64,000 nucleotides of DNA from Candidatus Kapaibacterium sp. (GTDB lineage Bacteria > Bacteroidota > Ignavibacteria > Kapaibacteriales > UBA2268). The stretch covers positions 1,401,950 through 1,465,949 of the forward strand of contig CP058732.1 of assembly GCA_013414795.1 (NCBI GenBank), read 5' to 3'. Below are positions 8,491 through 63,914 of the stretch, one piece after another; within the stretch, counting starts at the first letter, position 1; each line of letters starts with the position of its first letter. A program made the translations under genes and the position numbers. The notes beneath the pieces were generated by a model. The model had not been told where the DNA came from. It saw only the letters and a list, made by a program, of their open reading frames with translations, and did not search any database.

Positions 8491-8505
8491 ATTTCATTCC
8501 TACAA

Positions 8506-8682: not shown

Positions 8683-8832
8683 TTTTATATCAAATATTTT
8701 AAAGAATACAAAATTAATAAAAAATTTTCAATAAATAAAAATCAAATTTGTTTTTTTAATAAATCATCTATTCTTAATTTTACAATTTATTTTTTTGAAA
8801 TTATTTTTACTGTTTTTAAGACGGATTGAAAT

Positions 8833-45293: not shown

Positions 45294-45376
45294 GATTCAT
45301 TTTTTTGTTCTGCAAGAGATGTGTAGAGAAGGATTTCCCAAATATTTGGAGGTGAGTAACATAAGCTATGTAGGAG

Positions 45377-45450
45377 TGGTCCCGGAGGGACTCGAACCCC
45401 CGACACGCAGTTTAGGAAACTGCTGTTCTATCCGCCTGAACTACGGGACC
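45377..45450 (-). tRNA. tRNA-Arg (CCT), left copy
   Basis: Minus-strand cloverleaf: acceptor GGTCCCG / CGGGACC, anticodon arm GCAGT-TTCCTAA-ACTGC with anticodon CCT, T arm GGGGG-TTCGAGT-CCCTC. Discriminator base is A (base 45377, T on plus). CCA is not encoded. The copy at 60976-61049 is identical apart from the discriminator. Its 3' end is exactly where the large direct repeat starts. Confidence 0.93.
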
Positions 45451-45482
45451 CTCGACTGCAAAATTAATAAAATTTACTTGCT

Positions 45483-45490
45483 TAACTTTG
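45483..45490 (+). promoter_or_regulatory. Candidate promoter box of left HlyD-ABC operon
   Basis: TAACTTTG fits TAnnTTTG and lies 22 bases before the HlyD ATG at 45513, divergent to tRNA-Arg. The same box is at 61082-61089 in the right copy. Confidence 0.5.
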
Positions 45491-45512
45491 TATTTATTAT
45501 TAGTAATGTATT

Positions 45513-47395: not shown

Positions 47396-47604
47396 TGAAC
47401 GCTATCGTAACAAAAGGGCTAACGAAAAAATTTGGTGAATTTATTGCGGTGAACAATATCGATTTAGAAGTTGGAAATGGCGAGATATTCGGTTTTCTTG
47501 GTGCTAACGGGGCTGGGAAGACGACCACAATCAAGATGTTGGTTGGCTTGTTGTTCTGCTTTCTGAAATCTTTCTACATATTTCACATTAGGAGGTATTG
47601 TTAA
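47395..47604 (+). pseudogene. Second ABC ATPase, truncated to its first 53 residues (left copy)
   Basis: The frame starts [20 protein letters not shown] and includes an intact Walker A (GANGAGKTT). Homology to the intact right copy stops at codon 53 (base 47553), after which the frame runs 16 unrelated residues ([12 protein letters not shown]...) into the nuclease gene on the opposite strand. Signature motif, Walker B and D-loop are missing, so no ATPase can form. Thirteen base differences from the right copy are all synonymous, so the fragment shows no sign of relaxed coding selection before truncation. Confidence 0.9.
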
Positions 47605-48175: not shown

Positions 48176-49675
48176 ATGAAAACAGACAAAATTTCTCTTG
48201 CTACCCCGAGCAAGGGGTTCGTTTGCATTCTTCTTTTCGCATGTGTGTTCCTTTCTTTTCCATTACAAGCATTTGATGACTCTACGTTCGTTTGGAGAAA
48301 ACTTTTTTATAGAAAGCCTGGGGACAACTGTGGATTTGAGCATGCATATCTTTCAAATACTGACAGCATATTTGTTTTGCCCGACTTGCGATGTTTTCAC
48401 CTGGTAAAGACACTTTCTGGGGAGATTCTTTACACATCTTCGGAATATCTTGGTTGGCAGAATCCGAGAGCGATAATCTTTTTTGATGGTGACCGATATT
48501 TTATTGCCAGAAGAAATACTTCCACCCAGGGAGTATTCCTTTACGAAACACAACGAGTATTAAATGGAGACTTAATACCATTGGACACGATAAGAGTTGA
48601 AGGTGTAGAGATGCAAGACTATGATGTCTCGCCGGGTGGTAAATATCTGGTGCTTCAAGGTTACCTATACGGCTATATATTCGATCTGCCAACGGGCAAT
48701 TTTCTTAAGAGTTACAAAATGGAACCTTATGGGAGGAGGCCACAAGCAAGATTCCTTAATGATGATACATTAGTTATAGCGGTTGATGGTTGGAAGAGTA
48801 CATCTGGAGAGCCGAGATATTATTGGATAAGACTATACGATATAAACAAAGGGATGATAATAGATACAATATATTCGAATCATAAGGATTGTCCAATAGA
48901 TACGCAGAAACCTTGGATTCCAGTGCCATGTACACCACTTGGACCGACGTGTGACCAGGAGTGGTATGGGTGGACATATTGTGTGCCTATGTTTACAGTT
49001 TCGCGAACTGGTAGATATATATTGTATGGATTCGTCCCTCAGGAATATATAGATTCGAACGTGTTTGCTCCTCCCTTATGGTGGGCTCTTTACGATGTCA
49101 GAGAAAAAAAAGTGTTGTGGAAGAAGCAGTACGACAATTCTGTGTCGCATGGTGATTTTGGTATTTTTAAATTTGCGGCTGATGATAAAATTATATTGCT
49201 GCACGCAACCCACATAATTGATGTAAAAACTGGTGATGTAGTCTACATCTGGGGGGAAAAGGACAACAAGTGGATAGTATTAAAGCAACATTATTTTGAT
49301 ATAACAAAGGACGGTAGATATATAATATCAGGCTATGAATCGGATAATGAAGCATTTACTTACCTTCGGCGGAATCCATACGTAGATGTAGTAAATGAAG
49401 CGAGTGAGGAGACTTTCATAGAAGGTGGGACTATAGTGCCAAATCCCGCCGACGGGAAAGCAGTTCTAGAGATAGATATATCAGAAAGCAAGATAGACAA
49501 AATTACGATCAATACGTTGCAAGGGGAAGAAATTAAGGTGATATTCGAAGGAATGTTGCCCGAAGGGAAACATCTGTTTGAAATAAACACAAAAGAACTT
49601 GCCAGTGGAATGTATTTCGTAGTTGTGCAAACTTCCAAATGGCTAAAAACTTATAAGTTAATTGTTACAAAATAA
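48176..49675 (+). CDS. T9SS-sorted secreted beta-propeller-like protein
   Basis: 499 residues. A signal peptide (about residues 10-33, FVCILLFACVFLSFPLQ) is followed by repeated strand patterns with DVSPGGKYLVLQGYLYGYIFDL, FLNDDTLVIAVDG and KFAADDKIILLHATHIIDVK, reminiscent of WD40/quinoprotein propellers. The last 80 residues are a type A sorting domain (GGTIVPNPADGKAVLEIDIS ... KTYKLIVTK). RBS GGAGG precedes the ATG. Ile is written mostly as ATA through the second half of the gene, unlike nearby chromosomal genes. Confidence 0.8.
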   Translation: MKTDKISLATPSKGFVCILLFACVFLSFPLQAFDDSTFVWRKLFYRKPGDNCGFEHAYLSNTDSIFVLPDLRCFHLVKTLSGEILYTSSEYLGWQNPRAIIFFDGDRYFIARRNTSTQGVFLYETQRVLNGDLIPLDTIRVEGVEMQDYDVSPGGKYLVLQGYLYGYIFDLPTGNFLKSYKMEPYGRRPQARFLNDDTLVIAVDGWKSTSGEPRYYWIRLYDINKGMIIDTIYSNHKDCPIDTQKPWIPVPCTPLGPTCDQEWYGWTYCVPMFTVSRTGRYILYGFVPQEYIDSNVFAPPLWWALYDVREKKVLWKKQYDNSVSHGDFGIFKFAADDKIILLHATHIIDVKTGDVVYIWGEKDNKWIVLKQHYFDITKDGRYIISGYESDNEAFTYLRRNPYVDVVNEASEETFIEGGTIVPNPADGKAVLEIDISESKIDKITINTLQGEEIKVIFEGMLPEGKHLFEINTKELASGMYFVVVQTSKWLKTYKLIVTK

Positions 49676-49688
49676 GAAAGGAAGAAAA

Positions 49689-52600
49689 ATGAAAAAGATG
49701 ATTTTCATTTTGGGAGCGCTCTTTCTTGCATTGAACCTTTTTGCACAGAATCGGATAAGTCCCCGCCCAATAAGATTGAAGGAAATTAATTTTGATACGG
49801 TTCGAATCTATTGTGGTGTAAAGAGTGACACATTTAAACTTGACCAATTTCTAGGAGAAGATACACTTTATTTCGATATAGACACTTTAATCAAACCCGA
49901 TGGGGTATTTCTAAGGCAATGTTATGGTGGAGGAGGGGACCGAATCGGATTTGGAGCCCATACAGATTCTGCTTTGAGGATTAATTCTTATTTGGATCCA
50001 TTTCATCGAAGTGCAAATCCAGATTTAAATTTGGTGAGAAAATGGAATAACGCGCACAACCCCGGTGTATTGACAGTTCCACGGATTGACGCTGCTGGAA
50101 GTAGTTATTGGACACCTTTTATTTTTCAATCTTTACAACTCGAGCCCATACTCGAATACGACGACTTAGGTTACCCAATCATTGACCAAAATGATGAGGA
50201 TGGTTCGGTTTTTGGTTGGAAAAACAAAAACTCCGATTATGTTGCAAGAGGAACCGGGCTCGATACACATCGGCTTGTTGTAAGAAGACTAAATTGGTCA
50301 ATTTTTGAACCAGCTTTAATACTATGGAATAGCAATAAAGGAACGTTCTTCCGAAGAGTAAATGCCGAAGATACTACTTCGGTAGAAGTCGATAGTCTCT
50401 ATCTAACTGTAAATTTGCGTTCGTTAGATTCTTCTTTTACTGGTTTATCGGAATCGGACACCGTACTAAATTTGAGAATAAAAGTAATTCGACTCATCAA
50501 TAAGTTTGACAGCAGGGGGAACAGAGTAGACCCTTATCCCCAATATGATACAACTTACATAAAATTTGATTCTTTACCTAGCCTTGCTAATGGTGCATTC
50601 ATTACAATGCGGGGGACAAGACAAATAAATAATGAGTGGGAATTTTTAGGGTATGAATTAAATATGATGCGACAGCGTCCACTTCCCACCTCCTTTGCGA
50701 TTACAAAGGGTATGTTAATACCCGATACTCTTGGCGGAGATAGTAACAGCATTACATTGTCGGCACATGGTATTTTCTATGATACTACTGCCAGGCCTTC
50801 GTTATGTTTTGATTGGGTAAGTAAAGATTCTATAGAGAATGGGGTACGATATAGATACGTTTATGGAATAGTTGATTTCGACGTTGAGGTTTATTATTAT
50901 AACAATCTTGATGTTGCAATAGATTGGATAAGATTAGAATCGGGGAAAGCAAGGAGAGTATATCGGGGAAAATACGATGGCTGGCTATCGAAATATATAA
51001 AGTTGTTTTTCGAAGGTATAAGGAAAAGTCAACCCGACGAAGAAGATACGGCAAGCTATTGGAATTACTGGCGGAATTTTTTCCCATTATGGGCATACGA
51101 TACTGTTGGACTGAAAGTTCATAGGTTTTTCTTAGCAGAAGAGTTAGGACCGAATTTTTGGGGTGCGTATCGTTATTTGAACTTACTTCTGGATACTTTG
51201 GGAACGGCACCCAATGGTCTTCCCCCAAAAGAGCCTTGGAAACCTTACCAAGCTCAATTACATTTAACCGGCGAACATTTTTTTCATGCCACAGGGTTCG
51301 ATAATATTATCCTTGAATCAAGTATAGGCTTTGATATTCACCAGGCTGCACCCTATATTCGTTTATCTGGCGATCCACTTAACTTTTTTAATCAACCGTG
51401 GACAAGATGGGGTCCACAGTTTTTGCATCTTACCTCTGGTTACAAAGGAACTTTTCTTATGGATAACTTTGACGCTGTTGACCAAGGAAAAACCCGAAAG
51501 TTAATAGAAAATGAACCAACCACCAAACAAACAATAAATTTAAACAACAGAGATTTTGAAATTGATATACTTACCGATACTCTGTGTTCTGGGTATGAGC
51601 ATTGGAAGGGGGCACGCTCGACTGGATACTGTTTCGATAACATTAGCGACTCTTCGTTTAGAGTCAATCCTGACACTGTTGTAAAATATCGATTACCTGC
51701 TGTAATGAAAAGTCCTCTGTATAGTTTCGAATTCCAATTATACCAAAACTACCTCCAACAAAGTAATATATTACTTTTCAATAGAATTAAATTATATAAC
51801 TATTCTTGGCTTTCACCATTTCCTTGGCTGCGAGTTTCGTATCCTTCGCCTTTAGATACAACGAAAGAAGTTAGGGTATGGAATAGATATACAACAACCT
51901 CTGTTTTAATCAACCGCCCATGGACCGGGGAAGAAACACGTCTATCTTTTTACGCTCCTGTTTTGATAGGTGCAAAAGGCCTTAGTTTTTGGCATACAGG
52001 GTTCGAAATGGATGGGCGGCAAAATTCAATGGGGGTAATATGCCAACTCTATCCTTCCGATACTAATGCTTTAAGAAACTTACCAGTTGATTCAATAGTT
52101 TATTCTCCCTTGCTTATGGGTGATTATGTTCGGCGGGGCAACAATCGTGATGCTCATCCATACTGGGATACCACTCTTAATACTTTCAACCTATTAGATT
52201 CTGCGTTTAATTTTGAGATTATGGGGATTGATAGTAACCATATTTATATTGGAATAATGTCGAATCGAGCGGAAATGTCAAAAATCTTCAAATGGATAGA
52301 TGCTATTGAAGATACTTTAATAAATCTTCGATTGCTTTCCGCTTTTTATAAAGGAGCCAATCGTTATTATATTCAGGACCCAAAAGTTACATATTCCGAC
52401 ACATTGTTAAAAATTTTTGTAAAACTTAACAGTGTAAAGACTCGAAGGATTGGTGACAGTAGTAATTTTGACTCTGATTCGCTCAAGAGTTTTCTGCTTT
52501 CGCTTTTTGCCTATGGTAACGATACACTCCGCGACCCAGAAACCCTTGGTGAGGATTGCCCACCCTATATACCTATTGTTGGTTCTTATCCCTGCCATGT

Positions 52601-55460
52601 GGAGACTTTCTACCTTGGAGTTCTCAATCCACGGACAGACCCGCTGGTTCGAACATTCGATACAATCCGCAACCAACAAGGGGAAATTCTTTACATCGAT
52701 AGTTCAATGAAGTTTTACTCGACGGCAGAATACGACATTGGGGTTCGCTATGGCAATTACACGCATATTTGGAATCCATCGGATACCTCTTACCAACGGC
52801 GTGACACATCCTATTGGCAATCGCTGTGGTGGAAGCGACAGGGGGCAAGGGAAATTACCATACCGTTGCAGATTGAAGGTATAACAACCCCTAACGTTCG
52901 GAGAAATGCGCTTTATTTCTACTCCGTCGTTGTTCAGGAATTAGGAGCACAAGATACTAATCTAAACAAAGAATTTTGGCGTCAACCGAAATACTATCAT
53001 AAAGTAGATACTCTTTTGGTTAATTATGAAAGGGTCCATACGTGGAAATACGGGGGTTACTCTTATATATACCATAAAGATTACAATTTAAAAGTTCGGC
53101 TCTTGCCCGGGGAAGGAAAAATATTGAAAGTTTCTATCTACCGAAATTATCTGTGCGATTGGCAAGCCCGAGGGGATCTTCCTTATATTCACCAAACTAA
53201 ATTAATTACCCATTCTATTGAAATTGGGACCCGCTGGACTCGCGATAGTCTGTATCGTCATTTAGTTTACCATCGTAAAGATTCATTGACTGGTCGCTCT
53301 AAAATATATTATCGGCGAAGTTACCCTGTAATGTACGACTCCACCACAAGGATTACTGCGTGGTCGCCCGAAGTATGCCTTTCCGATAGTATTCGCTGTT
53401 GGCGTGAGCCTGAACGAATCATAACGAATGCCGATTGTGCCTATCCATCGCTCGTTGTTCGCTACGATTCTGTATCAGAAAAAACCAAGGTTTATGTTAC
53501 CTTTGTTTGTCGCGATGCCGATAGTCTTTCCAACTTCAACGATTGTCTTTACTCCAATGAACCACGATATAATTGTCCCAATGGTGATTACACGGTTGTA
53601 GCTGAGTGTATATTCGATGCAGACGACACAGTTCAAACGATACAGCCAGCACTGGCAATACGTTGGGCTTGTGGCGATGATGTTGCAACTTGGGGTGTTC
53701 CCGTTGTCAACGCCTCGCGATATGGCAATTATTACGTTTGGGCAGATTCGATTTCGGGTATTGTTTCTGGCTATAAAAGACCCTGGGAAAGCGAATTCCC
53801 TAATGGATTCAACTTTAATATGTCTTCGTTTAAATTCAGTTCTAATGGGATTGCAATAAATCCGTCGCTAACTTCTTATTCCAGAATATTTTACGATGAG
53901 GACGGAACCCCAATCGTTTGGCAGGAGAAGGACAACGCTGGCAGTCCTTACAATGTTTATTATTCATTGTTAAAAGTAGATTCGTCTGGTTTCTTCGTTC
54001 GGCACTATCTTCCCACCGGGGTTGGAAATAATAATCCATCTTTTGTTTTCAATGCTGACTCATCCATTGTAGAACTTGGTTTAGGTAGTGAAGTTGCCGA
54101 GCATCCGGTCATTTATCGTGATGTTAAAGATAGCCTTCAGCCTCCTGGACCCGAGCAAATTTTAGATTTGGTTGCTTGGGGTGCACAAAGAACGGATACC
54201 GTTGGAACTTGTCGTTTCGTTCGAACGATTACTTTGCAACACTTTTTGAATAACAGAGAGATTACATCAACAAGTATAAAACCAAGGGTTTCATTACATA
54301 CTGATTATACTAATTTTAATTTGCGGTATCCTGTGTTGTCGCAAGGTTCTTCTGGTACAGCAGAAAATCATCAAGGACCGGTAGTTTTAGAAACAATTGT
54401 CGAGGATAGTTGTCCGAGTCGAGAGAACTTCGAGAAAAAGGTTTTGCATATTCCTTATGACTACTTTGTTACAGAATCCCCATATTCGGAATTAATTCAT
54501 AGCGGAGCCTCTCTTGTTCAACTTTCGCGGCGGCCATTTGTTTCGATTCAAAACGATTGGTGGCAAAATTTACGATTGTTACAGAAAGACAGCTCGATTG
54601 CAGAATTTTGTACTTCGACTCGAAAGTTCTGGCGTCGGCAGGATGAAGAACCGAAGCCTTTTGTCTTCTTTGGCTTTTGCGATTCGACTGGTGTAACCTC
54701 GTTTACAAATATCCTTTTAGATGGAACAAGCTTAAAATGGAATGTAAAAGATATATATCCCGAATTAGACTCGGTTCGTAGATATCGTTTCATACCTTAT
54801 TCAGCAAGGAATGTGTTTTCGACGGAATGGTTCCAAGCGAAAGATTTATCCGCTTTATCTTTCGTAGTCAATAAAACGAGCAACAATCCGTTCAGCATCA
54901 CACTCGAAAGGCAAAGCGACAGAAGAAGAACGAGCTTACCGATTGGTTTAGACGCGGGATATAAAGTTCGTAACATAACATATCAGCTTTTGAACCGAAC
55001 ACCTGAGGAGAAATATCGAATCATAGTTGCACGAAACACACCGGAAGCACAGTTCTGCCAGGAAATTATTTTGATGCCCGACCCATTTGCCGAAGAGAAT
55101 ATATCGAGAGAAACAAATAACGATGTGCCTGTGCTCGACTTGGGAAGTATGGAAGTAAATACAAACACCAGCAATAATATTCAGATTTTGGTCTATCCAA
55201 ATCCAGTTGATGAACAGGTATATATAACAAGCTTATTACCTATTAAATATCTAAAAACTAAAGACAAAGAAGCATCGTTAGTTAGAATCAATATTTATAA
55301 CTCTATTGGGAACAAAATATATGGAGGCGAAATCCCATCGGGGAGTACATTTGCTTTTTCTACTACTACGTTACCATCTGGATTATACTATATAATTGCA
55401 ACTAAAATGGATTATGGGGTGAGTCTTAGCGGGAATGCTTCGTTCTTTATTTCAAAGTAA
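49689..55460 (+). CDS. Very large T9SS-sorted secreted protein
   Basis: 1,923 residues from the ATG at 49689 with RBS AAAGGAAG; the in-frame start at 49662 overlaps the preceding gene and is unlikely. A signal peptide (MKKMIFILGALFLALNLFAQ) and a final type A sorting domain (residues about 1,835-1,923, with LVYPNPVDEQVYITSLLP and SGLYYIIATK) mark it for the cell surface. The body is rich in Tyr, Trp, Asp and Arg, without repeats or a domain I recognise. It starts 13 bp after the preceding secreted protein gene and is probably co-transcribed. It fills more than a third of the accessory unit. Confidence 0.85.
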   Translation: MKKMIFILGALFLALNLFAQNRISPRPIRLKEINFDTVRIYCGVKSDTFKLDQFLGEDTLYFDIDTLIKPDGVFLRQCYGGGGDRIGFGAHTDSALRINSYLDPFHRSANPDLNLVRKWNNAHNPGVLTVPRIDAAGSSYWTPFIFQSLQLEPILEYDDLGYPIIDQNDEDGSVFGWKNKNSDYVARGTGLDTHRLVVRRLNWSIFEPALILWNSNKGTFFRRVNAEDTTSVEVDSLYLTVNLRSLDSSFTGLSESDTVLNLRIKVIRLINKFDSRGNRVDPYPQYDTTYIKFDSLPSLANGAFITMRGTRQINNEWEFLGYELNMMRQRPLPTSFAITKGMLIPDTLGGDSNSITLSAHGIFYDTTARPSLCFDWVSKDSIENGVRYRYVYGIVDFDVEVYYYNNLDVAIDWIRLESGKARRVYRGKYDGWLSKYIKLFFEGIRKSQPDEEDTASYWNYWRNFFPLWAYDTVGLKVHRFFLAEELGPNFWGAYRYLNLLLDTLGTAPNGLPPKEPWKPYQAQLHLTGEHFFHATGFDNIILESSIGFDIHQAAPYIRLSGDPLNFFNQPWTRWGPQFLHLTSGYKGTFLMDNFDAVDQGKTRKLIENEPTTKQTINLNNRDFEIDILTDTLCSGYEHWKGARSTGYCFDNISDSSFRVNPDTVVKYRLPAVMKSPLYSFEFQLYQNYLQQSNILLFNRIKLYNYSWLSPFPWLRVSYPSPLDTTKEVRVWNRYTTTSVLINRPWTGEETRLSFYAPVLIGAKGLSFWHTGFEMDGRQNSMGVICQLYPSDTNALRNLPVDSIVYSPLLMGDYVRRGNNRDAHPYWDTTLNTFNLLDSAFNFEIMGIDSNHIYIGIMSNRAEMSKIFKWIDAIEDTLINLRLLSAFYKGANRYYIQDPKVTYSDTLLKIFVKLNSVKTRRIGDSSNFDSDSLKSFLLSLFAYGNDTLRDPETLGEDCPPYIPIVGSYPCHVETFYLGVLNPRTDPLVRTFDTIRNQQGEILYIDSSMKFYSTAEYDIGVRYGNYTHIWNPSDTSYQRRDTSYWQSLWWKRQGAREITIPLQIEGITTPNVRRNALYFYSVVVQELGAQDTNLNKEFWRQPKYYHKVDTLLVNYERVHTWKYGGYSYIYHKDYNLKVRLLPGEGKILKVSIYRNYLCDWQARGDLPYIHQTKLITHSIEIGTRWTRDSLYRHLVYHRKDSLTGRSKIYYRRSYPVMYDSTTRITAWSPEVCLSDSIRCWREPERIITNADCAYPSLVVRYDSVSEKTKVYVTFVCRDADSLSNFNDCLYSNEPRYNCPNGDYTVVAECIFDADDTVQTIQPALAIRWACGDDVATWGVPVVNASRYGNYYVWADSISGIVSGYKRPWESEFPNGFNFNMSSFKFSSNGIAINPSLTSYSRIFYDEDGTPIVWQEKDNAGSPYNVYYSLLKVDSSGFFVRHYLPTGVGNNNPSFVFNADSSIVELGLGSEVAEHPVIYRDVKDSLQPPGPEQILDLVAWGAQRTDTVGTCRFVRTITLQHFLNNREITSTSIKPRVSLHTDYTNFNLRYPVLSQGSSGTAENHQGPVVLETIVEDSCPSRENFEKKVLHIPYDYFVTESPYSELIHSGASLVQLSRRPFVSIQNDWWQNLRLLQKDSSIAEFCTSTRKFWRRQDEEPKPFVFFGFCDSTGVTSFTNILLDGTSLKWNVKDIYPELDSVRRYRFIPYSARNVFSTEWFQAKDLSALSFVVNKTSNNPFSITLERQSDRRRTSLPIGLDAGYKVRNITYQLLNRTPEEKYRIIVARNTPEAQFCQEIILMPDPFAEENISRETNNDVPVLDLGSMEVNTNTSNNIQILVYPNPVDEQVYITSLLPIKYLKTKDKEASLVRINIYNSIGNKIYGGEIPSGSTFAFSTTTLPSGLYYIIATKMDYGVSLSGNASFFISK

Positions 55461-55888: not shown

Positions 55889-56311
55889 TTAAAATCCAAA
55901 TTTTTGTCTTCTGTGGTTGACGTATGCGATTATACTTACGTTTAGAATTCCTAAAAATAAATTCCAATCGGGTCTTGGAAATGTTCTTGTTTCAGAGAAA
56001 TTGATTAGCCGATTTAAGATTTGAATCCAGTTTGATATTTTTTCGAATTCGATTGTTCCGCTGTGATGCCTGAATTCTACCGTTTTATGTCTCCAATATG
56101 CTTCAATATTAATTTTGTAGTATCGGCTTCTATCGGTTACAACTGATGATAATGTTTCTAATCTTCTACATTGTATAATTTTATTATAAACATTTGAAAG
56201 TTCTAAATCGTTTGATGGTCTAAATCTTTGTTCTATACTTTTGCAGTATCTATTTGTATCGCCTCTTCTGGACTCAGGCATAATCTTGTCTATTTCTTTT
56301 TCCATTATCAA
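55889..56311 (-). CDS. Amidoligase_2-like protein, C-terminal part only
   Basis: 140 residues from a TTG at 56311 (an ATG at 56305 is alternative). It carries the second half of the Amidoligase_2 pattern: MPESRRGDTNRYCKSI and then YYKINIEAYWRHKTVEFRHH, HSGTIEFEKISNWIQIL. Full-length members are about 250-320 residues with a GCS-like N-terminal half containing a VEIE motif; this half is missing. In the same frame, upstream of the start, SWKKLVYNYL also fits the family, overlapping the 3' end of the preceding gene, so the gene seems to have lost its 5' half. Family members join amino groups to carboxylates; a fragment may be inactive. Confidence 0.72.
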   Translation of the reverse strand: MIMEKEIDKIMPESRRGDTNRYCKSIEQRFRPSNDLELSNVYNKIIQCRRLETLSSVVTDRSRYYKINIEAYWRHKTVEFRHHSGTIEFEKISNWIQILNRLINFSETRTFPRPDWNLFLGILNVSIIAYVNHRRQKFGF

Positions 56312-56579
56312 ATAATTGTAAACCAGCTTTTTCCAGCTGTTGTTCGATGAGAGTTGTAAGTTTTTCCGAAAGGAAATCCGATGTTAAGTTCGACAGGTCG
56401 TCTACCGTGTCGAGCGGCAACGAAACAAAGGAAGACAAAAGGCGCGGAGCGTGATATTCTACTCCCTCTTTTGCATCGACGAACGTAGCGTAAAGATTGA
56501 GTGTGTTTCGCAACTCATTGAGCTTCTCAATAAGTTTAGTGTTTTGGGAAAATTTCCCGATTTCATTTGGTAGATTCAT
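56274..56579 (-). CDS. Hypothetical protein
   Basis: 101 residues (MNLPNEIGKFSQNTKLIEKL...), mostly helical, acidic and unrecognised. Its start overlaps the HTH gene by 4 bp (ATGA), and its last 38 bases overlap the amidoligase-like gene in another frame. Part of the five-gene operon. Confidence 0.6.
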   Translation of the reverse strand: MNLPNEIGKFSQNTKLIEKLNELRNTLNLYATFVDAKEGVEYHAPRLLSSFVSLPLDTVDDLSNLTSDFLSEKLTTLIEQQLEKAGLQLFDNGKRNRQDYA

Positions 56580-56950
56580 AAAATCTCCCTAATTTTGTGT
56601 GACAAATGCGTGTGACAAGCGTTGTTTGTTACCCCATTGTTAGTTTTTCCTCGTCGGGAGGCTTTCAATGGGGTTTCTTTTTGTATTTCTTTTAAGAGAT
56701 TATCGTAGAATGCTTCTGGAATTTTTTCGTTAGGTCGAGGCGAAGTAACGAAGCGTTCCAGTTCTTTTTGTTGCAGTTCTTTGAGAGCTTTTCGCTCTGC
56801 TTCAAGGAAGGCGTCAATGGAGAATTTTTTCCGAGTGCCGGAAATTTGAGTAGGTACAAGTAACCCGCGGCGAACCCAATCGTAGAGCAGGTGCTTGCTT
56901 GTCTTGGTTTCTCGAGCGAGTTCGTTGATTGTGTACCTACGGTAATCCAT
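56576..56950 (-). CDS. MerR/excisionase-type HTH protein
   Basis: 124 residues. The N-terminus YTINELARETKTSKHLLYDWVRRGLL with FSIDAFLEAER is a winged-helix DNA-binding fold of the MerR/excisionase class. The C-terminal half is charged, low complexity. In phage-like elements such proteins act as excisionases or early regulators. It overlaps the upstream HTH gene by 14 bp and the next gene by 4 bp. Confidence 0.7.
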   Translation of the reverse strand: MDYRRYTINELARETKTSKHLLYDWVRRGLLVPTQISGTRKKFSIDAFLEAERKALKELQQKELERFVTSPRPNEKIPEAFYDNLLKEIQKETPLKASRRGKTNNGVTNNACHTHLSHKIREIL

Positions 56951-57170
56951 TGAACTTTTTCCATTGGTTAAGAATAAGGTCGTACTTAAATTTTGCTCTT
57001 TGTGATTTTGTTTTTTTGTTTTCGAGGTATTCGGTTAGGCATTGTTCAAGCAAATCGATAGTATACTCGTCGTTTCGCTTCAATCGATGGTAAACAGCTT
57101 GTTTGGTTAATTTCAGTTTCTTTGCAATGGCTGGAATTATACCGCGAGGTAAATATTTTTTATTATACAT
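56937..57170 (-). CDS. Small HTH DNA-binding protein
   Basis: 77 residues, basic. IPAIAKKLKLTKQAVYHRLKRND (about residues 12-33) is a helix-turn-helix of the Cro/transposase type. First gene of the minus-strand operon and directly divergent from the CI-type repressor gene, the place of a Cro-like antagonist; that role is inferred. Confidence 0.65.
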   Translation of the reverse strand: MYNKKYLPRGIIPAIAKKLKLTKQAVYHRLKRNDEYTIDLLEQCLTEYLENKKTKSQRAKFKYDLILNQWKKFNGLP

Positions 57171-57477
57171 AGGCAGCCTCGTAATTTTTGGTTTTAAAAT
57201 ATTTTTTATTAATTTTGAAATGTTTTGTTTTAATTTTGTTAATATTTTTTTGCATTTTTAAAAAATATATAATAAATATGAAAGAATCGATGAAACCAAC
57301 AGACATTATATTGCGGTTCAAAAAGTGGGCTTTTCTTCTTTTGTTACAAAACTCTTTACTTTTACTTTTTAGAATTCCTTTCATTTTTCGTTTTTCATTT
57401 TTTGTTCCTTACAAAATTACAAAAAAAATTTAAATTATGCAAGTATTTTAAAAAAATTTTTAAAAAAAGTAATATTT
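57171..57477. promoter_or_regulatory. Divergent control region between early operon and CI-type repressor
   Basis: 307 bp, very AT-rich, between the two divergent regulators. TAATTTTG occurs on the plus strand at 57210-57217 and 57231-57238 (21 bases apart) and on the minus strand at 57412-57419, each fitting TAnnTTTG. No hairpin or clear operator palindrome was seen. Short reading frames in both directions (one predicting a hydrophobic peptide from 57279) have no support beyond being open. Confidence 0.5.
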
Positions 57478-58005
57478 ATGGTGAAAGCAGTGGAAACAAA
57501 AGAATTAATTGTTGCGGAAATAATAGAGAGATTGCGTAATTATTATAAAGTTAGGACTTTATCGGAGATTGGAGAACGCCTTGGGGTAAGCGAATCCACT
57601 CTTTCTGTGTGGAAACACAGAAATACGTTTGATATTTTTAAGATATTCTCCAAAATTCCCGACATTAATTGGCACTGGTTGTTGACCGGTGAGGGAGAAA
57701 TGCATTATAATCCTAAAGAGAAACAAGAGAAAACTGCTACAATAGAATATTTGTTAAGAAAATTGAAAGAGTTGGAAAGCGAAAATGAGGTTTTGAAGAG
57801 ACTTTATAATGAAAGTCTTCGTAAAATCGAGGAAATGAAATCTCAATTAGAATCTTCCAAAGAACAATCTTTATCTGGTGATACAATCGAAGTTCCGCTT
57901 ATGAAGCTTCCAGATGAAGCAGAAATATTTAAAAGAGAAAAAGAAAAAGGTGGAGGAATATACTCTCGCGGCAAAAAGAAAGATTTAAATAAAGAAAATT
58001 GTTAA
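57478..58005 (+). CDS. CI-type phage repressor HTH protein without peptidase domain
   Basis: 175 residues. The HTH is at about 27-46 (TLSEIGERLGVSESTLSVWK), followed by IPDINWHWLLTGEGEM, the signature of the Bac_CI_repr N-terminal domain. A coiled coil follows (about 82-120, rich in Leu/Glu), and a charged tail ends KKKDLNKENC. The S24 peptidase domain expected C-terminally is absent; an S24 protein is encoded 0.55 kb downstream. Divergent from the early operon, consistent with a lysogeny-like switch. Confidence 0.8.
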   Translation: MVKAVETKELIVAEIIERLRNYYKVRTLSEIGERLGVSESTLSVWKHRNTFDIFKIFSKIPDINWHWLLTGEGEMHYNPKEKQEKTATIEYLLRKLKELESENEVLKRLYNESLRKIEEMKSQLESSKEQSLSGDTIEVPLMKLPDEAEIFKREKEKGGGIYSRGKKKDLNKENC

Positions 58006-58083
58006 AAAATTTGCTTAACTGTAAGTTTTTGTTTAATTTTTATTTTTTAATTCCTTTTGTCTAATTGTTTTTTAGGAGGCTTT

Positions 58084-58389
58084 GTGGAAAAATCACTGTA
58101 TCTCTTGACTCCATCTCAATTTATAGCATATCAATCATTAGGGATGGAAAAACAGCAACAATTTCTTTATGAGTTCGGGAAGCAGTCACACGATCCGCTT
58201 ATTGCGATGATATTTTTTATCTTTGGTTTCCATTATTTTTATTTAGGGGAAACTGGTAAACAGATATTGTATATGTTTACTCTAGCAGGTTTTTCTATAT
58301 GGTGGTGGATCGATCTGTTTGGGCTTAAGAAAAAAGTCCAAAAACAGAATGAGTTATTAGCAGACCGGATATTGGGGCGTTTGAAATAA
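58084..58389 (+). CDS. TM2-domain membrane protein
   Basis: 101 residues from a GTG at 58084 with AGGAGG 4 bp before it; an earlier TTG (58057) is less likely. The TM2 pattern is present: IFFIFGFHYFYLGETGKQ then WWWIDLFGL, two transmembrane helices joined by a short polar loop with an acidic residue. A soluble N-terminus (LLTPSQFIAYQSLG) precedes it. TM2 proteins occur in many bacteria, with no general function assigned. It sits between the two repressor parts. Confidence 0.78.
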   Translation: MEKSLYLLTPSQFIAYQSLGMEKQQQFLYEFGKQSHDPLIAMIFFIFGFHYFYLGETGKQILYMFTLAGFSIWWWIDLFGLKKKVQKQNELLADRILGRLK

Positions 58390-58469
58390 CAATTTGTTTC
58401 GATCCCCGCCTTAATGGACGCTGTTTTAAAATCTAAAATAGAAATCGAGAAAAAGAGCTTATAATTTTT

Positions 58470-58500
58470 AAATTATTTTGAAATAATTTTAAAATTATTT
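58470..58500. promoter_or_regulatory. Perfect palindrome and extra half site, candidate operator
   Basis: AAATTATTT (58470-58478), TG, AAATAATTT (58481-58489) form a perfect 9-bp inverted repeat; a third AAATTATTT follows at 58492-58500. It lies 54 bases before the S24 gene. AT-rich composition lowers the weight of the palindrome, but the third identical half site argues for a repeat array. Confidence 0.45.
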
Positions 58501-58553
58501 CTTTTCCTGTAAAAACTTAAGGTAATAAATTGTTTTTTTGACAGAGAAAAATT

Positions 58554-58994
58554 ATGAACACTGAAGACGTTGTTGCTGTTCCGTTTTGTGTCACCCAAAT
58601 AGCGTGCGGTGATGGTATTCCATTTTTTGATGGAATAGAGTATATGAAAATTCCTTGTAAAAGATTGCGAGGAATAAAAGAGCCCTTGCTTGTCGAGGTA
58701 ACAGGCGATTCAATGGAACCGTTTTTTTTCCACAGAGAAATTGTTCTTGTTGATTTGGATAGATTGCCTAGTCACGGCGATTTTGTTCTGATTTCTTTCA
58801 ATGGTTGTTTAATGATTAAAAGGTTACATTTTAAGGATGGTCGAATGTGTTTAATTTCGACGAACTTTTTGTATCCAACTATTTTTATAAAAGATTGCGA
58901 CGACTGGCAGGTGTTGGGTGTTTGCGTAAAGAAGGTGAGAAGTTTATCCGAGCTTAGTTTGAATACATATAAAGATATTAAATTAAACAAATAA
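58554..58994 (+). CDS. S24 (LexA/CI C-terminal) peptidase-type protein, no HTH
   Basis: 146 residues. VTGDSMEPFF holds the nucleophile Ser53, and LMIKRL holds Lys89, the S24 Ser-Lys dyad. The upstream QIACGDG resembles the region where an Ala-Gly cleavage bond stands in LexA-like proteins, here Ala-Cys-Gly. No DNA-binding domain is present. It could act with the separate HTH protein at 57478, as a split repressor, or as an inducible antirepressor; both are inferred. Confidence 0.82.
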   Translation: MNTEDVVAVPFCVTQIACGDGIPFFDGIEYMKIPCKRLRGIKEPLLVEVTGDSMEPFFFHREIVLVDLDRLPSHGDFVLISFNGCLMIKRLHFKDGRMCLISTNFLYPTIFIKDCDDWQVLGVCVKKVRSLSELSLNTYKDIKLNK

Positions 58995-59027: not shown

Positions 59028-59825
59028 ATGAAAAGGTTTTTTGTTGCTTTGTTTGTTGCTGTCTTGTTGTGGGGTTGTACCTCAAATTTAGAAATAGTAA
59101 AAAATTGGAAGGAAGTTGTCAAGGAAAGGGCAATCGAAGAAAAACCAAAAATTGTAGCTAACGTTGGTGACGTTTTGTTTCAAAAGCATATTGATGATGT
59201 TTATCGTTACGATTGCTTTAAGAATGATGTTCCAATCTTTTTCCCAGATGATTTAATTGAAGATTTGGAACTCCAGCCGGGATATTTTATCCCAGCGGGA
59301 AAATCCTTTTGTAGTATTTCAACCTATGATTGTAATTTGGGTGAATTTTATTTGGAAATTGAGAAAAGAGTAACAAAGGAAGAAAACGGTAATGATTGGT
59401 GCTCTTCGGAAGATTCTATTCCATCGATACAGTGGATTTATTTGAAGATAAGTGCAGAAAAAGAGGGGAATTCGATTTTGATAACAAAAAGTGATGAATT
59501 AGTGTTGCGCGAAACAAGGACGGGATATCGATATCTTAAAAAGGAATATGAGCTTCCGAACAACATTAAATTAAGTTCAGTAGTTAAGGACACTATAAAT
59601 TATAATGTTTATTATATGGAGTTAATTTTTGGTGGTGTTCAAGGCAACAGTTTGATAATGTATTTTAGAGAATATTATCGTAGCGAACTTAATCAACCAC
59701 ATTCATATACGCTTTATTATAATGTTGAAGATATTAAAAGGCAAGGGAAAATCAAATTTAGGGATGTTGAATTAGAAGTAATAGATTTTGATGGTCAGTC
59801 AATTACATATAGGATTGCAAAATAA
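59028..59825 (+). CDS. Lipoprotein of unknown function
   Basis: 265 residues. Lipobox LWGC (Cys17) after a hydrophobic signal. The body is beta-rich with several Cys (CFKND, CSISTYDCN, WCSSEDS), and no family is recognised. It lies between the S24 gene and the integrase gene, so it may be cargo expressed from an integrated element, like a surface-altering moron. Confidence 0.7.
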   Translation: MKRFFVALFVAVLLWGCTSNLEIVKNWKEVVKERAIEEKPKIVANVGDVLFQKHIDDVYRYDCFKNDVPIFFPDDLIEDLELQPGYFIPAGKSFCSISTYDCNLGEFYLEIEKRVTKEENGNDWCSSEDSIPSIQWIYLKISAEKEGNSILITKSDELVLRETRTGYRYLKKEYELPNNIKLSSVVKDTINYNVYYMELIFGGVQGNSLIMYFREYYRSELNQPHSYTLYYNVEDIKRQGKIKFRDVELEVIDFDGQSITYRIAK

Positions 59826-59840: not shown

Positions 59841-60890
59841 ATGCCGCGCTATTCTACCGCTCGTGAAGACCGCTGGCTTCATCCTAGCTATCGCAAGGCA
59901 TATTGTTTTCGATATAGAAATGGTATGGTTTATACGTCCGTCAACTCGGTGCGAAAAGCGACAGGCCTTGTTTGGTCGCAAAAGAATCGTAAATTGGCGA
60001 TGGAGATACTTGAACGAAGAATACAAGAAGAGGTTTTTGGCAAAAAAATTCAAAAGTCTAAATATGTTAAAGATTTAGTTGTTCGTTTCTTTAATGATCG
60101 GGTATCGAAACTTTCGCAGGCAACTCAACAAAGGTACAAAAGAATTGTTAAATATTTTCTGTACGAGAATTGGAGCTTAGATGACATCCAGTTGATAAGG
60201 ATTAAAATACTTGAGGTTGTAAATTCAATGAACTATAATTTAAGTTATATTCGTAAGATGCTTTCGGATTTAAAGGGAATATTCAATTATGCTATAGATC
60301 TTGATTGGATGGATAAAAATCCTATAATTACTTCAATGTTGCCTACCATAAAGAGACAGGAAGTACGAACGTTGACATTTGAGCATATACAAAAATATAT
60401 AGAATTTTTCTTTTCAAATAATCAGGAGCCGTTAGCATTAATTGTAGAATTTGCATATTTAACCGCTATGAGAATACAGGAAATAATAGATTTGAAGTGG
60501 GAAGATATTAGCGACAGATACTTTATAATCAAAGGAAAAGGTGATAGAAATCGAGTGTTTCCGTTGAACCCATTCCCACGAGTAAAAGAGATTTTAAATC
60601 GAATGAAAGAATTGAAGTTGTCTAAGCCTGGTGTTTATCAGAATCAACAGAACTTAGCAAGGCAAATTAAAAAAGCAAATGTTGAATTACAGAAGAGATA
60701 TCCAGAGATGCATTATGAGAAGATTACTTTTCACGTTATCAGGAAAGGAGCAATCAACCATTGGAGAACAATTGGAATAGACCCAGAAGTCAGGAATATG
60801 TTGGCAGGGCATACCCGGGAGGTAGAGCGGAATTATTATTTATCTGTCCCGGATATTAACTTATTAGAGCAAAGATTAAGTAAAATATAA
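59841..60890 (+). CDS. Tyrosine recombinase (integrase)
   Basis: 349 residues. Core-binding domain at about 70-165, catalytic domain from 175. Catalytic residues seen: Arg211 (LTAMRIQEI), Lys near 233 (KGKGDRNR), His298-x-x-Arg301 (FHVIRKG), His324 (LAGHTRE) and Tyr333 (RNYYL). The N-terminal 60 residues (RKAYCFRYRNGMVYTSVNS) form an arm-binding-like three-stranded domain. All catalytic residues are present. It ends 86 bp from the 3' end of the right tRNA-Arg, the normal layout when the tRNA is the attachment site. Confidence 0.93.
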   Translation: MPRYSTAREDRWLHPSYRKAYCFRYRNGMVYTSVNSVRKATGLVWSQKNRKLAMEILERRIQEEVFGKKIQKSKYVKDLVVRFFNDRVSKLSQATQQRYKRIVKYFLYENWSLDDIQLIRIKILEVVNSMNYNLSYIRKMLSDLKGIFNYAIDLDWMDKNPIITSMLPTIKRQEVRTLTFEHIQKYIEFFFSNNQEPLALIVEFAYLTAMRIQEIIDLKWEDISDRYFIIKGKGDRNRVFPLNPFPRVKEILNRMKELKLSKPGVYQNQQNLARQIKKANVELQKRYPEMHYEKITFHVIRKGAINHWRTIGIDPEVRNMLAGHTREVERNYYLSVPDINLLEQRLSKI

Positions 60891-60975
60891 GCAAAATGAG
60901 TGCCTAAAAATGAAGATTTTGGATAAGATGTTTGGATATAAGTGGCTTAATATCGAGAGGTAAAAAAGATTTTTG

Positions 60976-61049
60976 CGGTCCCGGAGGGACTCGAACCCCC
61001 GACACGCAGTTTAGGAAACTGCTGTTCTATCCGCCTGAACTACGGGACC
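60976..61049 (-). tRNA. tRNA-Arg (CCT), right copy
   Basis: Same sequence as the left copy for every base of the cloverleaf, but the discriminator is G (C on plus at 60976) instead of A. CCA is not encoded. It lies between the integrase and the intact HlyD operon, whose upstream region is also duplicated. Confidence 0.93.
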
Positions 61050-61081
61050 CTCGACTGCAAAATTAATAAAATTTACTTGCT

Positions 61082-61089
61082 TAACTTTG
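61082..61089 (+). promoter_or_regulatory. Candidate promoter box of right HlyD-ABC operon
   Basis: TAACTTTG, TAnnTTTG type, 22 bases before the ATG at 61112; copy of the box at 45483. Confidence 0.5.
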
Positions 61090-61111
61090 TATTTATTATT
61101 AGTAATGTATT

Positions 61112-62083
61112 ATGAAAAAAATTATTGTATTGTTGCTTTTAAGTTTAACTCTGAGTTGTTCCCATCAAAATTCAAAAGGATTTATCGAAGCCAGCGGAAT
61201 AATTGAAGCTACAGAAATTCTTATTTCTTCAAAAGTAAACTCGCAAGTATTAAATCTTCTTGTTGACGAAGGTAGTGACGTTCGCAAAGGTGATACTCTT
61301 GCCATTCTGGATAGTGAGAATTATCAGTACCAATATGAACAAGCACTTGCAAGTGAATCCTCTGCAAAGGCGCAGTTGGAACTTCTTCGAAAAGGGGCTC
61401 GAATTGAGGACATTCGTCAAGCAGAGGAAGCATTAAAGCAAGCAGAAGAGAATCTCTCGATTGCAAAAACAAATTACGAACGTTTCCAAAAATTAAAAGC
61501 AAACAAAGTTGTAAGTGATAAGCAATTCGAAGATGTTGAACTGAATTTCAAACTTGCTCAATCTCGTTATCTACAAGCAAAAGAGAATTATAACAAGGTT
61601 TCAAAACTCTTTCGGAAAGAAGAAATTGAACAAGCAGAAGCAAATTTACAAAGAGCGAGTGCAAATGTGAAATTGTTTCGCAAATATCTTACCGATTGTA
61701 TAGTAGTTTCCCCAGTTGAAGGCAAGATTTTACAAAAATTTGTGGAAGTTGGTGAGATAGTTTCGCAAGGAATTCCATTATTCAAAATTGCTAAACTGGA
61801 TACGATGGAGATGATTGTTTATGTTTCGGAAAAAGATTTGGGCAAGGTAAAATATGGTCAATACGTCGAAGTTCGTTGTGATTCTTACCCAGAAAAAGTA
61901 TTTAAAGGGAAGATTGTTTACATATCGAGCGAAGCAGAATTCACACCCAAAAATGTACAGACAAAGGACGAGCGAGAAACAATGGTTTTTGCCGTGAAAA
62001 TAAAAATCCCAAATCCCAATATGGAACTCAAATCTGGAATGCCGGCGGACTCAAAAATTTTGATTTCTGAATTACAGAAGTAA
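61112..62083 (+). CDS. HlyD/YbhG-type membrane fusion lipoprotein, right copy
   Basis: 323 residues, identical in translation to the left copy (lipobox Cys16, coiled-coil hairpin about 70-170, barrel/lipoyl halves). Here it heads a complete run of HlyD - ATPase - ATPase - permease, with TAATG overlap into the next gene, so this copy should form a working exporter of the YbhGFSR type, substrate unknown. Confidence 0.93.
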   Translation: MKKIIVLLLLSLTLSCSHQNSKGFIEASGIIEATEILISSKVNSQVLNLLVDEGSDVRKGDTLAILDSENYQYQYEQALASESSAKAQLELLRKGARIEDIRQAEEALKQAEENLSIAKTNYERFQKLKANKVVSDKQFEDVELNFKLAQSRYLQAKENYNKVSKLFRKEEIEQAEANLQRASANVKLFRKYLTDCIVVSPVEGKILQKFVEVGEIVSQGIPLFKIAKLDTMEMIVYVSEKDLGKVKYGQYVEVRCDSYPEKVFKGKIVYISSEAEFTPKNVQTKDERETMVFAVKIKIPNPNMELKSGMPADSKILISELQK

Positions 62084-62994
62084 TGGAACCAACTATTAAG
62101 GTTGAGAATCTTACTAGGATTTATAATAATAGGAAAGCCATAGACAATCTTTCCTTTTCTGTCCAAAAGGGCGAAATCTTTGGGGTGGTTGGACCAGACG
62201 GAAGCGGAAAAACTACATTAATAAAACTTCTTGCAGGAATAATTCAGCCCACAGAAGGGGAAATTGTTATTAATGGACTTAACATCTTGAAGGATTATAA
62301 AAAAATCAAGCCATTGATTGGATATTTATCGCAAAACTTTTCCCATTATCTTGATCTTACAGTTGAGGAAAATCTTGAATTTTTTGCGGAAATGCATAAA
62401 ATCAAAAATTATCGAGACAGAATCGAATTTTTGTTGAGATTTGTCAATTTAGAGAATTTTCGAAACACTTTGATTGCAAATCTTTCAGGGGGAATGAAAC
62501 AAAAATTGGCATTAATTTCTTCGTTAATTTACGAACCAGAAATACTTTTACTTGATGAACCAACAACGGGAGTAGACCCAATTTCGAGGCGTGAATTTTG
62601 GTTTTTGTTACATAAACTTGTTCTGGAAGGAAAAACAATATTTTTTGCCACTCCGTATCTGGATGAAGCCGAACGTTTCAATAAAGTTCTGTTGCTGGAT
62701 AGTGGGAAGAAATTGGCTTGCGATTCTCCATCAAATCTACTTGCAAATGTTGATTTCTCCGTCCTCGAAATTATTTGTTCAAATTTGAACACTGGCAGCA
62801 AAATCTTAAAAGAATATGGTGATGTGCAAGTATTTGGCGACAGAATCCATCTTGTTTTACACAAACAAAAGAGTAATCTTGTTGAAAAAGTGAAAAATAG
62901 TATTGAATCTGCCGGTGTTGAACTTTATCAAATTCAAGAGATTAATCCAACATTAGAGAATGTATTTTTACATCTGATAACGAAAAGGAATTAA
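62083..62994 (+). CDS. ABC transporter ATPase (first), right copy
   Basis: 303 residues with Walker A GPDGSGKT, signature LSGGMKQ and Walker [14 protein letters not shown]; identical to the left copy. TAATG overlaps on both sides. Together with the next gene it corresponds to the two halves of the fused YbhF ATPase, here as separate genes. Confidence 0.93.
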   Translation: MEPTIKVENLTRIYNNRKAIDNLSFSVQKGEIFGVVGPDGSGKTTLIKLLAGIIQPTEGEIVINGLNILKDYKKIKPLIGYLSQNFSHYLDLTVEENLEFFAEMHKIKNYRDRIEFLLRFVNLENFRNTLIANLSGGMKQKLALISSLIYEPEILLLDEPTTGVDPISRREFWFLLHKLVLEGKTIFFATPYLDEAERFNKVLLLDSGKKLACDSPSNLLANVDFSVLEIICSNLNTGSKILKEYGDVQVFGDRIHLVLHKQKSNLVEKVKNSIESAGVELYQIQEINPTLENVFLHLITKRN

Positions 62995-63914
62995 TGAACG
63001 CTATCGTAACAAAAGGTTTAACGAAAAAGTTTGGTGAATTTATTGCGGTGAACAATATCGATTTAGAAGTTGGCAATGGGGAGATATTCGGTTTTCTTGG
63101 TGCTAATGGGGCGGGGAAAACGACAACAATCAAGATGTTGGTAGGGCTGTTACCCCCGACAAGCGGTTCAATTTTTGTCTCTGGCATAGATGTGGTGAAA
63201 CAACCATTAAAAATCCGAGAAACTATCGGCTATATGTCGCAAAAATTTTCGCTTTATAATGATTTAACAGTGGAAGAAAATATTGATTTTTTTGCTGGTA
63301 TCTATGGGATTGCTTTTAAAAAAGCAAAGCAACTAAAAGAGGAGTTAATTGAGCGTTTTCAGTTGCAAGAATTTAGGAAATTTTTGACAAAAGACTTGCC
63401 TCTTGGATTGAAGCAACGGCTTGCTCTTGGTGTTGCATTGATGCACAAGCCAAAAGTAATTTTTCTCGATGAACCCACCTCGGGTGCAGACCCAATTGCA
63501 AGAAAGTATTTTTGGGAGTTAATCCAATCGCTTGCAAACGACGGCGTTACTTGTTTTGTTACGACACATTATCTTGAAGAGGCAGAATTTTGTTCGAGAA
63601 TAAGTCTAATTGATTCTGGAAAAATTATTGCTTGTGGTTCTCCTAATGAATTAAAAAGAAAATATTTTCAAACACCAATATTCGAGGTTGATTTTGGAAA
63701 TCTTGAAAAGAACATTGAAGTTTACCGAAAAGGGGTTAGCAATTCTGAAATTTCCTTCTTTGGAAGTAGATTACATATAACAATGAAAGAATTATCAGTC
63801 TCTGAAAATGATTTACGGATACAGTTAACCTCAACTTTTGGAGAGCAACCACGGACAATTCGACGAATATTACCAACTTTGGAAGATGTTTTCATAAAAG
63901 CAATTCAAAAGTAA
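62994..63914 (+). CDS. ABC transporter ATPase (second), intact
   Basis: 306 residues: Walker [10 protein letters not shown] (about 35-43), signature LPLGLKQRLALG (diverged from LSGGQ), Walker B VIFLDEPTSGADP, switch His in TTHYLEEAE. The complete version of the fragment at 47395. Second half of a YbhF-like pair; the permease gene starts 4 bp after its stop. Confidence 0.93.
   Translation: MNAIVTKGLTKKFGEFIAVNNIDLEVGNGEIFGFLGANGAGKTTTIKMLVGLLPPTSGSIFVSGIDVVKQPLKIRETIGYMSQKFSLYNDLTVEENIDFFAGIYGIAFKKAKQLKEELIERFQLQEFRKFLTKDLPLGLKQRLALGVALMHKPKVIFLDEPTSGADPIARKYFWELIQSLANDGVTCFVTTHYLEEAEFCSRISLIDSGKIIACGSPNELKRKYFQTPIFEVDFGNLEKNIEVYRKGVSNSEISFFGSRLHITMKELSVSENDLRIQLTSTFGEQPRTIRRILPTLEDVFIKAIQK

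Follow-up and report, generated by a model that had tools for sequence, protein, structure and literature searches.

A helix-turn-helix repressor-like protein and an S24 peptidase encoded by separate genes in a phage-derived element of Candidatus Kapaibacterium, and recurrence of the split in its family

The window analyzed here is a stretch of 64,000 nucleotides (G000:C1:1401950-1465949) from the 2.66-Mb single-contig genome of Candidatus Kapaibacterium sp. (G000), a bacterium of the Ignavibacteria, and it carries a helix-turn-helix (HTH) protein and a stand-alone S24 peptidase in two different genes. S24 repressors are the classic self-destroying switch, cut in cis. Here the separation of the two parts is no accident, as it recurs in two forms that we call class 1 (pairs of the window type, with the predicted cleavage site on the S24 protein) and class 2 (chromosomal HTH and S24 pairs). 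Class 1 comprises two elements of this genome and eight other loci from its bacterial family, while class 2 was found in at least 25 of the 54 family genomes and in 13 of the 27 genera. We propose that the window pair is a bipartite CI-type switch, in which a UmuD-like S24 protein would control the HTH protein by contact and release it after RecA-triggered self-cleavage, a reading to which we assign a probability of about 0.5.

The split module in the window

The features to which the text refers are given below by their positions in the window.

56576..56950, minus strand: MerR-like or excisionase-like protein, 124 aa (PF13411, E 9e-7; phrog_66 excisionase, E 3e-5)
56937..57170, minus strand: 77-aa protein in the Cro position, with a homologue in the second element L035 at 7647-7883
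57171..57477, no strand: AT-rich control region separating the HTH gene from the divergent early genes; no clear operator repeat was found in it
57478..58005, plus strand: HTH and coiled-coil repressor half, an ORF of 175 aa with no peptidase domain
57877..57966, plus strand: C-terminal tail of the HTH protein (...VPLMKLPDEAEIFKREKEKGGGIY..., residues 134-163), a conserved stretch and a candidate for docking
58084..58389, plus strand: TM2 membrane protein, 101 aa, GTG start (PF05154, E 8.8e-10), exchangeable cargo
58480..58501, no strand: perfect AT-rich palindrome 5' of the S24 gene (inverted repeat I2), possible operator or promoter part
58554..58994, plus strand: stand-alone S24 peptidase, 146 aa, of UmuD-like layout (PF00717, E 6.2e-19)
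58605..58610, plus strand: Cys18-Gly19, predicted self-cleavage site (G19 invariant in 6/6 separate S24 proteins)
58710..58712, plus strand: Ser53, catalytic (invariant in 6/6 separate S24 proteins and in 44/44 alignment rows)
58818..58820, plus strand: Lys89, catalytic (invariant in 6/6 separate S24 proteins and in 44/44 alignment rows)
59028..59825, plus strand: protein with a lipoprotein-type start, 265 aa, cargo (called by eye; no Pfam match better than E 0.09)
59841..60890, plus strand: tyrosine integrase (PF00589, E 1.6e-14)
60975..61049, minus strand: right-end tRNA-Arg, probably the attachment site (second copy at 45376-45450)

The HTH protein matches PF07022 (Phage_CI_repr) over residues 15 to 75 with an E value of 1.1e-9, which passes Pfam's cut-off, and the Pfam profile search found no S24 match in it; its coiled coil is a by-eye call. 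Conversely, PF00717 spans residues 14 to 125 of the S24 protein and is the sole family matched at E values up to 1, with no HTH in the ORF. The sequence-only reading of this region had described an HTH protein with no peptidase domain and an S24 domain with Ser53 and Lys89 but no HTH, and both descriptions are borne out, as is that of a GTG-start TM2 gene between the two, which is preceded by AGGAGG at 58074-58079. The HTH and S24 matches thus fall on different ORFs, while in lambda CI and LexA both parts belong to one polypeptide. What the window S24 protein does share with them is the Ser-Lys pair together with a C-G at the usual spacing, as Cys18-Gly19 lies 34 residues N-terminal of Ser53, the place where S24 proteins cut themselves. 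An AlphaFold model built from 44 rows (mean pLDDT of 86 and pTM of 0.80) matched a lambda CI fragment that includes the cleavage-site region, UmuD' and LexA in a structure search, and on this model the protein has the CI/LexA/UmuD fold. At the sequence level, the PDB gave four matches at E values up to 0.01, the best of 6e-6. The gene has no adjoining umuC; its neighbors are the genes of the lipoprotein-type protein and of the integrase.

Aligned with the paralogue from L035, the other element of this genome, the HTH protein is best preserved in its tail (19 of 30 residues identical); the figures for the HTH domain and the coil are 31 of 66 and 19 of 51, respectively. Counted by codon, 12 changes in the 30 codons of the tail are synonymous and 11 alter the amino acid, and the 66 codons of the HTH domain have 12 and 35, respectively. 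Neither A-G nor C-G is present in this tail in the window protein. Searches for operators in the control regions of the window gave AT-rich repeats only, none of them convincing. An FCB-type promoter pattern has a single plus-strand match, at 57187, and in its strict form none 5' of the S24 gene. The S24 gene begins 548 bp behind the HTH gene in the window and 1,953 bp behind it in L035, and in both it may have its own promoter.

From left to right, the module consists of the genes for the MerR- or excisionase-like and 77-aa proteins, the divergent AT-rich region, the HTH, TM2, S24, lipoprotein-type and tyrosine integrase genes and the tRNA-Arg. Such an order is usual for a lysogeny module, and the three genes form part of a lysogeny-type module in a phage-derived element that carries an integrase and lies at the tRNA-Arg. 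The element also encodes a nuclease (PF00565, SNase), and no head or tail gene could be named among the ORFs scanned between the repeats that flank it (10 plus the SNase and three more). These are perfect direct repeats of 2,040 bp (45378-47417 and 60977-63016) on either side of a 15.6-kb element, far longer than a normal attachment repeat; they contain the tRNA-Arg, an HlyD-type gene and an ABC gene (both protein names given by eye), and beyond them the match continues at 55 to 56 of every 60 bases over some 120 bp and then ends. Also within the element are two proteins of 499 aa (48176-49675) and 1,932 aa (49662-55460), both with a PF18962 secretion-system sorting end, and a piece of an amidoligase gene (55889-56311), whose Pfam match is confined to the C-terminal end of the profile (137-244 of 245) and which is probably a remnant.

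Recurrence of the split in mobile elements

The ten class-1 loci are the window, L035, L171, L037, L038, L070, L039, L040, L042 and L175. In L035, located near a tRNA-Val, the genes for a 78-aa protein and a MerR-like protein (7301-7660, homologue of the one in the window) are divergent from an HTH gene of 161 aa, and after the cargo come an S24 gene of 139 aa and the integrase. The two elements of this genome share 46% identity in their HTH proteins, 42% in the S24 proteins and 73% in the integrases. L171, from another genus, has an HTH gene, two lipoprotein-type genes, a Bro-N gene, a second HTH-like gene, S24 and integrase, its two HTH proteins being called by eye, with no Pfam match for either at E values up to 0.05. 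The order HTH, cargo, S24, integrase is therefore common to the window, L035 and L171. In L175 the S24 gene lies directly behind the HTH gene and the integrase follows after one further long gene; the two genes also adjoin in L037, L038 and L070 (one phage type), L039 and L042, and in L040 one more small gene stands between them. An AG or CG is found 25 to 45 residues before the Ser in nine of the ten class-1 S24 proteins, L175 having GG instead. Three of the ten class-1 HTH tails contain AG, all from the one phage type of L037, L038 and L070.

The conserved neighborhood of a pair in separate genes makes control by contact between two proteins, as suggested by the sequence-only reading, a sensible inference. 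The other half of that suggestion, that the membrane protein links the unit to an envelope signal, found no support, because the genes in this slot differ between elements. In L035 it is occupied by genes for a ClpP/SDH-type protease and a lipoprotein-type protein with a small ORF between them, in L171 by two lipoprotein-type genes and the Bro-N gene, and only the window has TM2 there among the three elements with cargo at this place. The HTH and S24 genes recur together in other genomes, while TM2 is replaced by others. Since the content of the slot varies, the cargo appears exchangeable, which fits what can be expected of lysogeny-module cargo, and TM2 would be one such item, perhaps directed against superinfection. 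In another genome of the collection (G003, locus L173) a TM2 gene lies directly 5' of the integrase, at the very point where the contig begins, and among 50,697 phage records TM2 gave two weak matches.

A second feature of the class-1 HTH proteins is the motif [LI]PD after residue 75, present in six of nine and reached in none of 2,000 shuffles; this count omits L038 and L070 as copies of L037 and takes two proteins from L171, the motif was chosen post hoc, and in L040 it appears to fall inside an HTH. It occurs in one of seven HTH proteins with no S24 gene; L066, where no S24 gene was seen, has it. Both L066 and L174 have an HTH gene of the PF07022 kind 5' of a lipoprotein-type gene and an integrase with no S24 gene between them. 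Together with ten S24 genes of the chromosomal type that have no HTH gene within 250 to 300 bp upstream, they represent the independent occurrence that the sequence-only reading had named as the evidence to count against it, seen here in part of the loci only. The S24 gene is a frequent, non-obligatory part of such modules.

Three side observations concern these loci. Behind the split pair of the single phage type there is a third gene (L037 9139-9783, L038 8242-8886, L070 2294-2938) for an S24-like protein, with a PF00717 match of E 4e-12 in L037; its catalytic Ser position reads VKGNDLF, and to judge from this the protein is probably inactive. In a different family of the order, L026 (genome G050) has an HTH-like protein of 190 aa whose gene overlaps a UmuD-like S24 gene, a possible further split pair. 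Beside the second element (L035 106-2788) there are a CysH-like gene (PF01507) and a RAMP-like gene (PF03787, weak and below cut-off), which look like a type IV CRISPR-Cas set.

Viral relatives were collected from IMG/VR with an S24 alignment, keeping the best 80 of 131. By a length rule applied with no domain search, which takes a protein as fused when its Ser is at residue 95 or later, 76 of these best 80 have fused length. The remaining loci are L098 and L120, with no recognizable Ser motif, L086, which is short and has no HTH upstream, and L077, a split pair with an S24 domain identical to the one in L042. The single clear split pair among the best 80 loci is the virus record of L042, and the split is rare in IMG/VR. 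An AG or CG in the cis interval was present in 75 of 78 viral S24 proteins, 76 of which are of fused length.

A tree of S24 domains was built with 18 of the 25 class-2 pairs, eight of the ten class-1 loci and four of the ten unpaired genes, from few columns and with a bootstrap that had not settled. The eight class-1 rows group with three viral rows, one of them the L042 record, and stand apart from the UmuD rows, with weak support (71/72). Class-2 rows and S24 genes with no HTH partner form one starred set (96/84). It lies inside a larger one (97/87, also starred) that includes UmuD and the majority of the fused host rows, class 1 remaining outside. Judging from these sequences, the split likely arose twice.

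Chromosomal pairs of HTH and S24 genes

A PF00717 search of the Kapaibacterium genome found four S24 genes, none fused to an HTH. Two belong to the elements, one (L001) is of the UmuD type and forms a umuD-umuC type locus, its second gene matching PF00817 (IMS) at E 9e-39, and the last is L036, in which the gene for a 158-aa XRE-type protein (PF12844 at E 0.001, short of Pfam's cut-off) overlaps that for a 189-aa S24 protein. The L036 pair lies at 7323-8724 of the locus, about 150300-151720 of the chromosome (G000:C1). On the opposite strand there is a divergent gene of the Mor family (PF08765, E 4e-6), with a strong palindrome in between. Relatives of this S24 protein are present in all five genomes of the genus, each with an HTH gene in front. 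The 25 class-2 pairs come from long-frame S24 genes among the matches listed, from L024/L182 and from further searches, so that the count of 25 in 54 genomes is a minimum. Their S24 proteins have about 190 to 240 aa, including an extra N-terminal stretch. Within 245 genomes of the class, matches over this stretch appeared in family f1 only (9 genomes), in a class-wide search (E up to 1e-25) that missed known class-2 genes in G002 and G004.

Unlike CI and LexA, class-2 pairs have the candidate scissile dipeptide on one protein and the catalytic pair on the other. None of the 25 S24 partners has AG or CG in the usual cis interval, and the Ser is kept in all 25 (Ser and Lys are both invariant in 10 that were aligned). 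Instead, 24 of 25 pairs have an A-G among the 45 C-terminal residues of the HTH protein ([AV]AG in 22 and SAG in 2), in contexts such as KVLKVAAGKIKNRG, ISVAAGDI, YTAVAGDL and YKVSAGRLEK; as the rows are related, these do not amount to 24 independent events. By genus the figure is 12 of 13, the exception being L207 (g6), which reads AAAK. Of the 21 pairs scored first, 20 had [AV]AG among the final 45 residues of the HTH protein and one had it at another place in that protein, compared to 0.035 per protein in shuffled tails, and the four pairs read after the first counts (L271, L272, L274 and L275) all fit. Leaving out the three pairs that prompted the idea (L036, L013/L180 and L023/L181), 21 of 22 remain. 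As a control, eight HTH proteins with no S24 gene directly behind had no A-G or C-G in the tail. The ten class-2-like S24 genes that have no HTH gene within 250 to 300 bp upstream were not counted as pairs, and two of them (L197 and L200) have AG in the cis interval. In seven fused relatives from a sister family, VSAG occupies the normal cis place, so that the class-2 HTH tail looks like a fused protein's scissile strand.

This layout suggests trans cleavage of a separate repressor by an S24 peptidase, and the class-2 S24 protein probably acts in this way on its HTH partner. The tail of the HTH protein would dock in the active site of the peptidase and tie the repressor to it, and DNA damage would lead the peptidase to cut this tie in trans. 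More broadly, we put forward tentatively, at a little under even odds, that Ignavibacteria have a split version of LexA/CI, with the Ala-Gly of the HTH tail docking in an S24 protein that has no site of its own and being cut in trans upon damage, of which the elements would be the mirror form. These odds are lowered by six pairs (L187, L192, L195, L196, L201 and L182, of the 24) in which the A-G codons are inside the overlap of the HTH and S24 frames, where the start of the S24 gene may help to hold them; outside frame overlaps the A-G is found in 18 of 19 tails. An Ala-Gly in the tail can also have other causes, for example a helix hinge.

The LexA DNA-binding domain (PF01726) had no match in the Kapaibacterium genome and is present in only 5 of the 54 family genomes, a scarcity compatible with a replacement. 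A palindrome, GTAAGAAATAC-N11-GTATTTCTTAC, precedes the HTH gene in the five genomes of the genus, with one-base departures in some of them. In the Kapaibacterium genome exact copies of its arm number three, two of them within coding sequence, and sites with up to one mismatch number 69, versus 98 for the reversed control. Of these 69 sites, 30 were inspected, and among them the HTH promoter alone had two good arms at a suitable spacing; no wide regulon of the L036 pair was found. A role of the class-2 pair as SOS master regulator was consequently discarded, with no regulon found and fewer arm sites than in the reversed control.

Possible mechanisms of the window pair and alternatives

The proposed switch builds on what the sequences show, namely split genes, conservation of the predicted cleavage site, the catalytic pair and the HTH tail, and a gene order that is kept while the cargo varies. 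In it, the S24 protein would be the damage-sensing subunit. Its uncut arm or body would bind the tail of the HTH protein and aid repression, RecA filaments would trigger self-cleavage at Cys18-Gly19, and contact with the tail would then be lost and the element induced. As the S24 protein has no DNA-binding domain, cutting itself would free its arm of 18 residues rather than such a domain. Binding between the tail and the S24 protein is proposed on the conserved tail, the [LI]PD motif and the analogy with the arms of UmuD, which according to extracts of PMC5342242 hold recognition sites for several partners and whose removal alters the role of UmuD. Binding, the RecA response and the direction of the effect are the steps that we infer. 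Several observations weigh against the switch: the distance of the S24 gene from the HTH gene and the promoter that it may have, the HTH genes of L174 and L066 with no S24 gene before the integrase, the [LI]PD of L066, the GG of L175, and the AG in the HTH tail of the one phage type.

An enzyme similar to ImmA could instead cut the HTH protein in trans, within its conserved tail, and not hold the repressor at all. We consider this unlikely for the window. The gene logic is the same as that described in the excerpted text on phage TP-J34 (int, ltp, a metalloproteinase and an HTH-only CI; PMC3952083) and on ImmR/ImmA (PMC12637031), and the A-G on the HTH protein of 24 of 25 class-2 pairs points in the same direction; however, the window tail has neither A-G nor C-G, and its S24 protein keeps a C-G of its own that a purely trans-acting enzyme would not need. 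Somewhat less probable still is a role for the S24 protein unrelated to the HTH repressor, as a UmuD-like polymerase manager or as damage-response cargo. All four PDB matches are indeed UmuD or UmuD', and a stand-alone S24 protein with a short N-terminal arm and a C-G resembles UmuD. The absence of an adjoining umuC argues against it, as do the position of the S24 gene between the HTH gene and the integrase in the window, L035, L171 and L175, the other class-1 S24 genes that adjoin the HTH gene or are one small gene away, and, weakly, the separation of class-1 and UmuD rows in the tree.

The two remaining explanations seem very improbable. Decay, in which the insertion of TM2 broke a fused CI gene into two nonfunctional halves, would agree with an element that looks reduced, with no head or tail gene named among the scanned ORFs and with a piece of an amidoligase gene, but neither half is broken, both are conserved in the paralogue and across other genera despite different cargo, the catalytic pair and the site are conserved, and the ratio of synonymous to amino-acid changes is higher in the tail than in the HTH domain (12 to 11 versus 12 to 35), all of which disfavor it. 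The least probable of all is the relay in which TM2 would pass an envelope signal to both soluble proteins. TM2 does sit between the two genes here and a TM2 gene is also found near the integrase of G003, but signaling by this route was rejected because the content of the slot is not constant.

Several known systems come close to the split pairs. Lambda CI, LexA and the noncanonical LexA of Bacteroidetes, the latter as far as covered by the excerpts of PMC8565304, share with the split pairs the HTH and S24 parts, a scissile A-G or C-G, the Ser-Lys pair and the fold. UmuD is also stand-alone, with a short arm and a C-G site, but the window S24 protein has no umuC partner and is placed in a module of repressor and integrase. 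The module of TP-J34, in the portion of PMC3952083 available, likewise has an HTH-only repressor, a separate protease, lipoprotein cargo and an integrase, and the combination of HTH-only repressor and separate protease gene that defines ImmR/ImmA is found in the window too; in both of those systems, though, the protease is a metalloproteinase and not an S24 serine peptidase. UmuDAb of Acinetobacter, in the excerpted part of PMC7273328, is an S24 repressor that depends on DdrR, a protein encoded by a gene of its own, in a background in which LexA is absent. It differs in keeping its own N-terminal DNA-binding part, and DdrR is described there as a corepressor with no homologues, not as an HTH partner. 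In the extracts of the literature that we covered on split, LexA-type and ImmA-type repressors and on S24 cleavage in trans, HTH and S24 proteins as separate partner genes were not found described.

If these readings are correct, the same S24 chemistry would work between proteins, and these pairs would provide a natural system in which to measure S24 cleavage in trans. In addition, a group of bacteria that is mostly free of LexA (PF01726 in 5 of 54 genomes) could still couple transcription to DNA damage.
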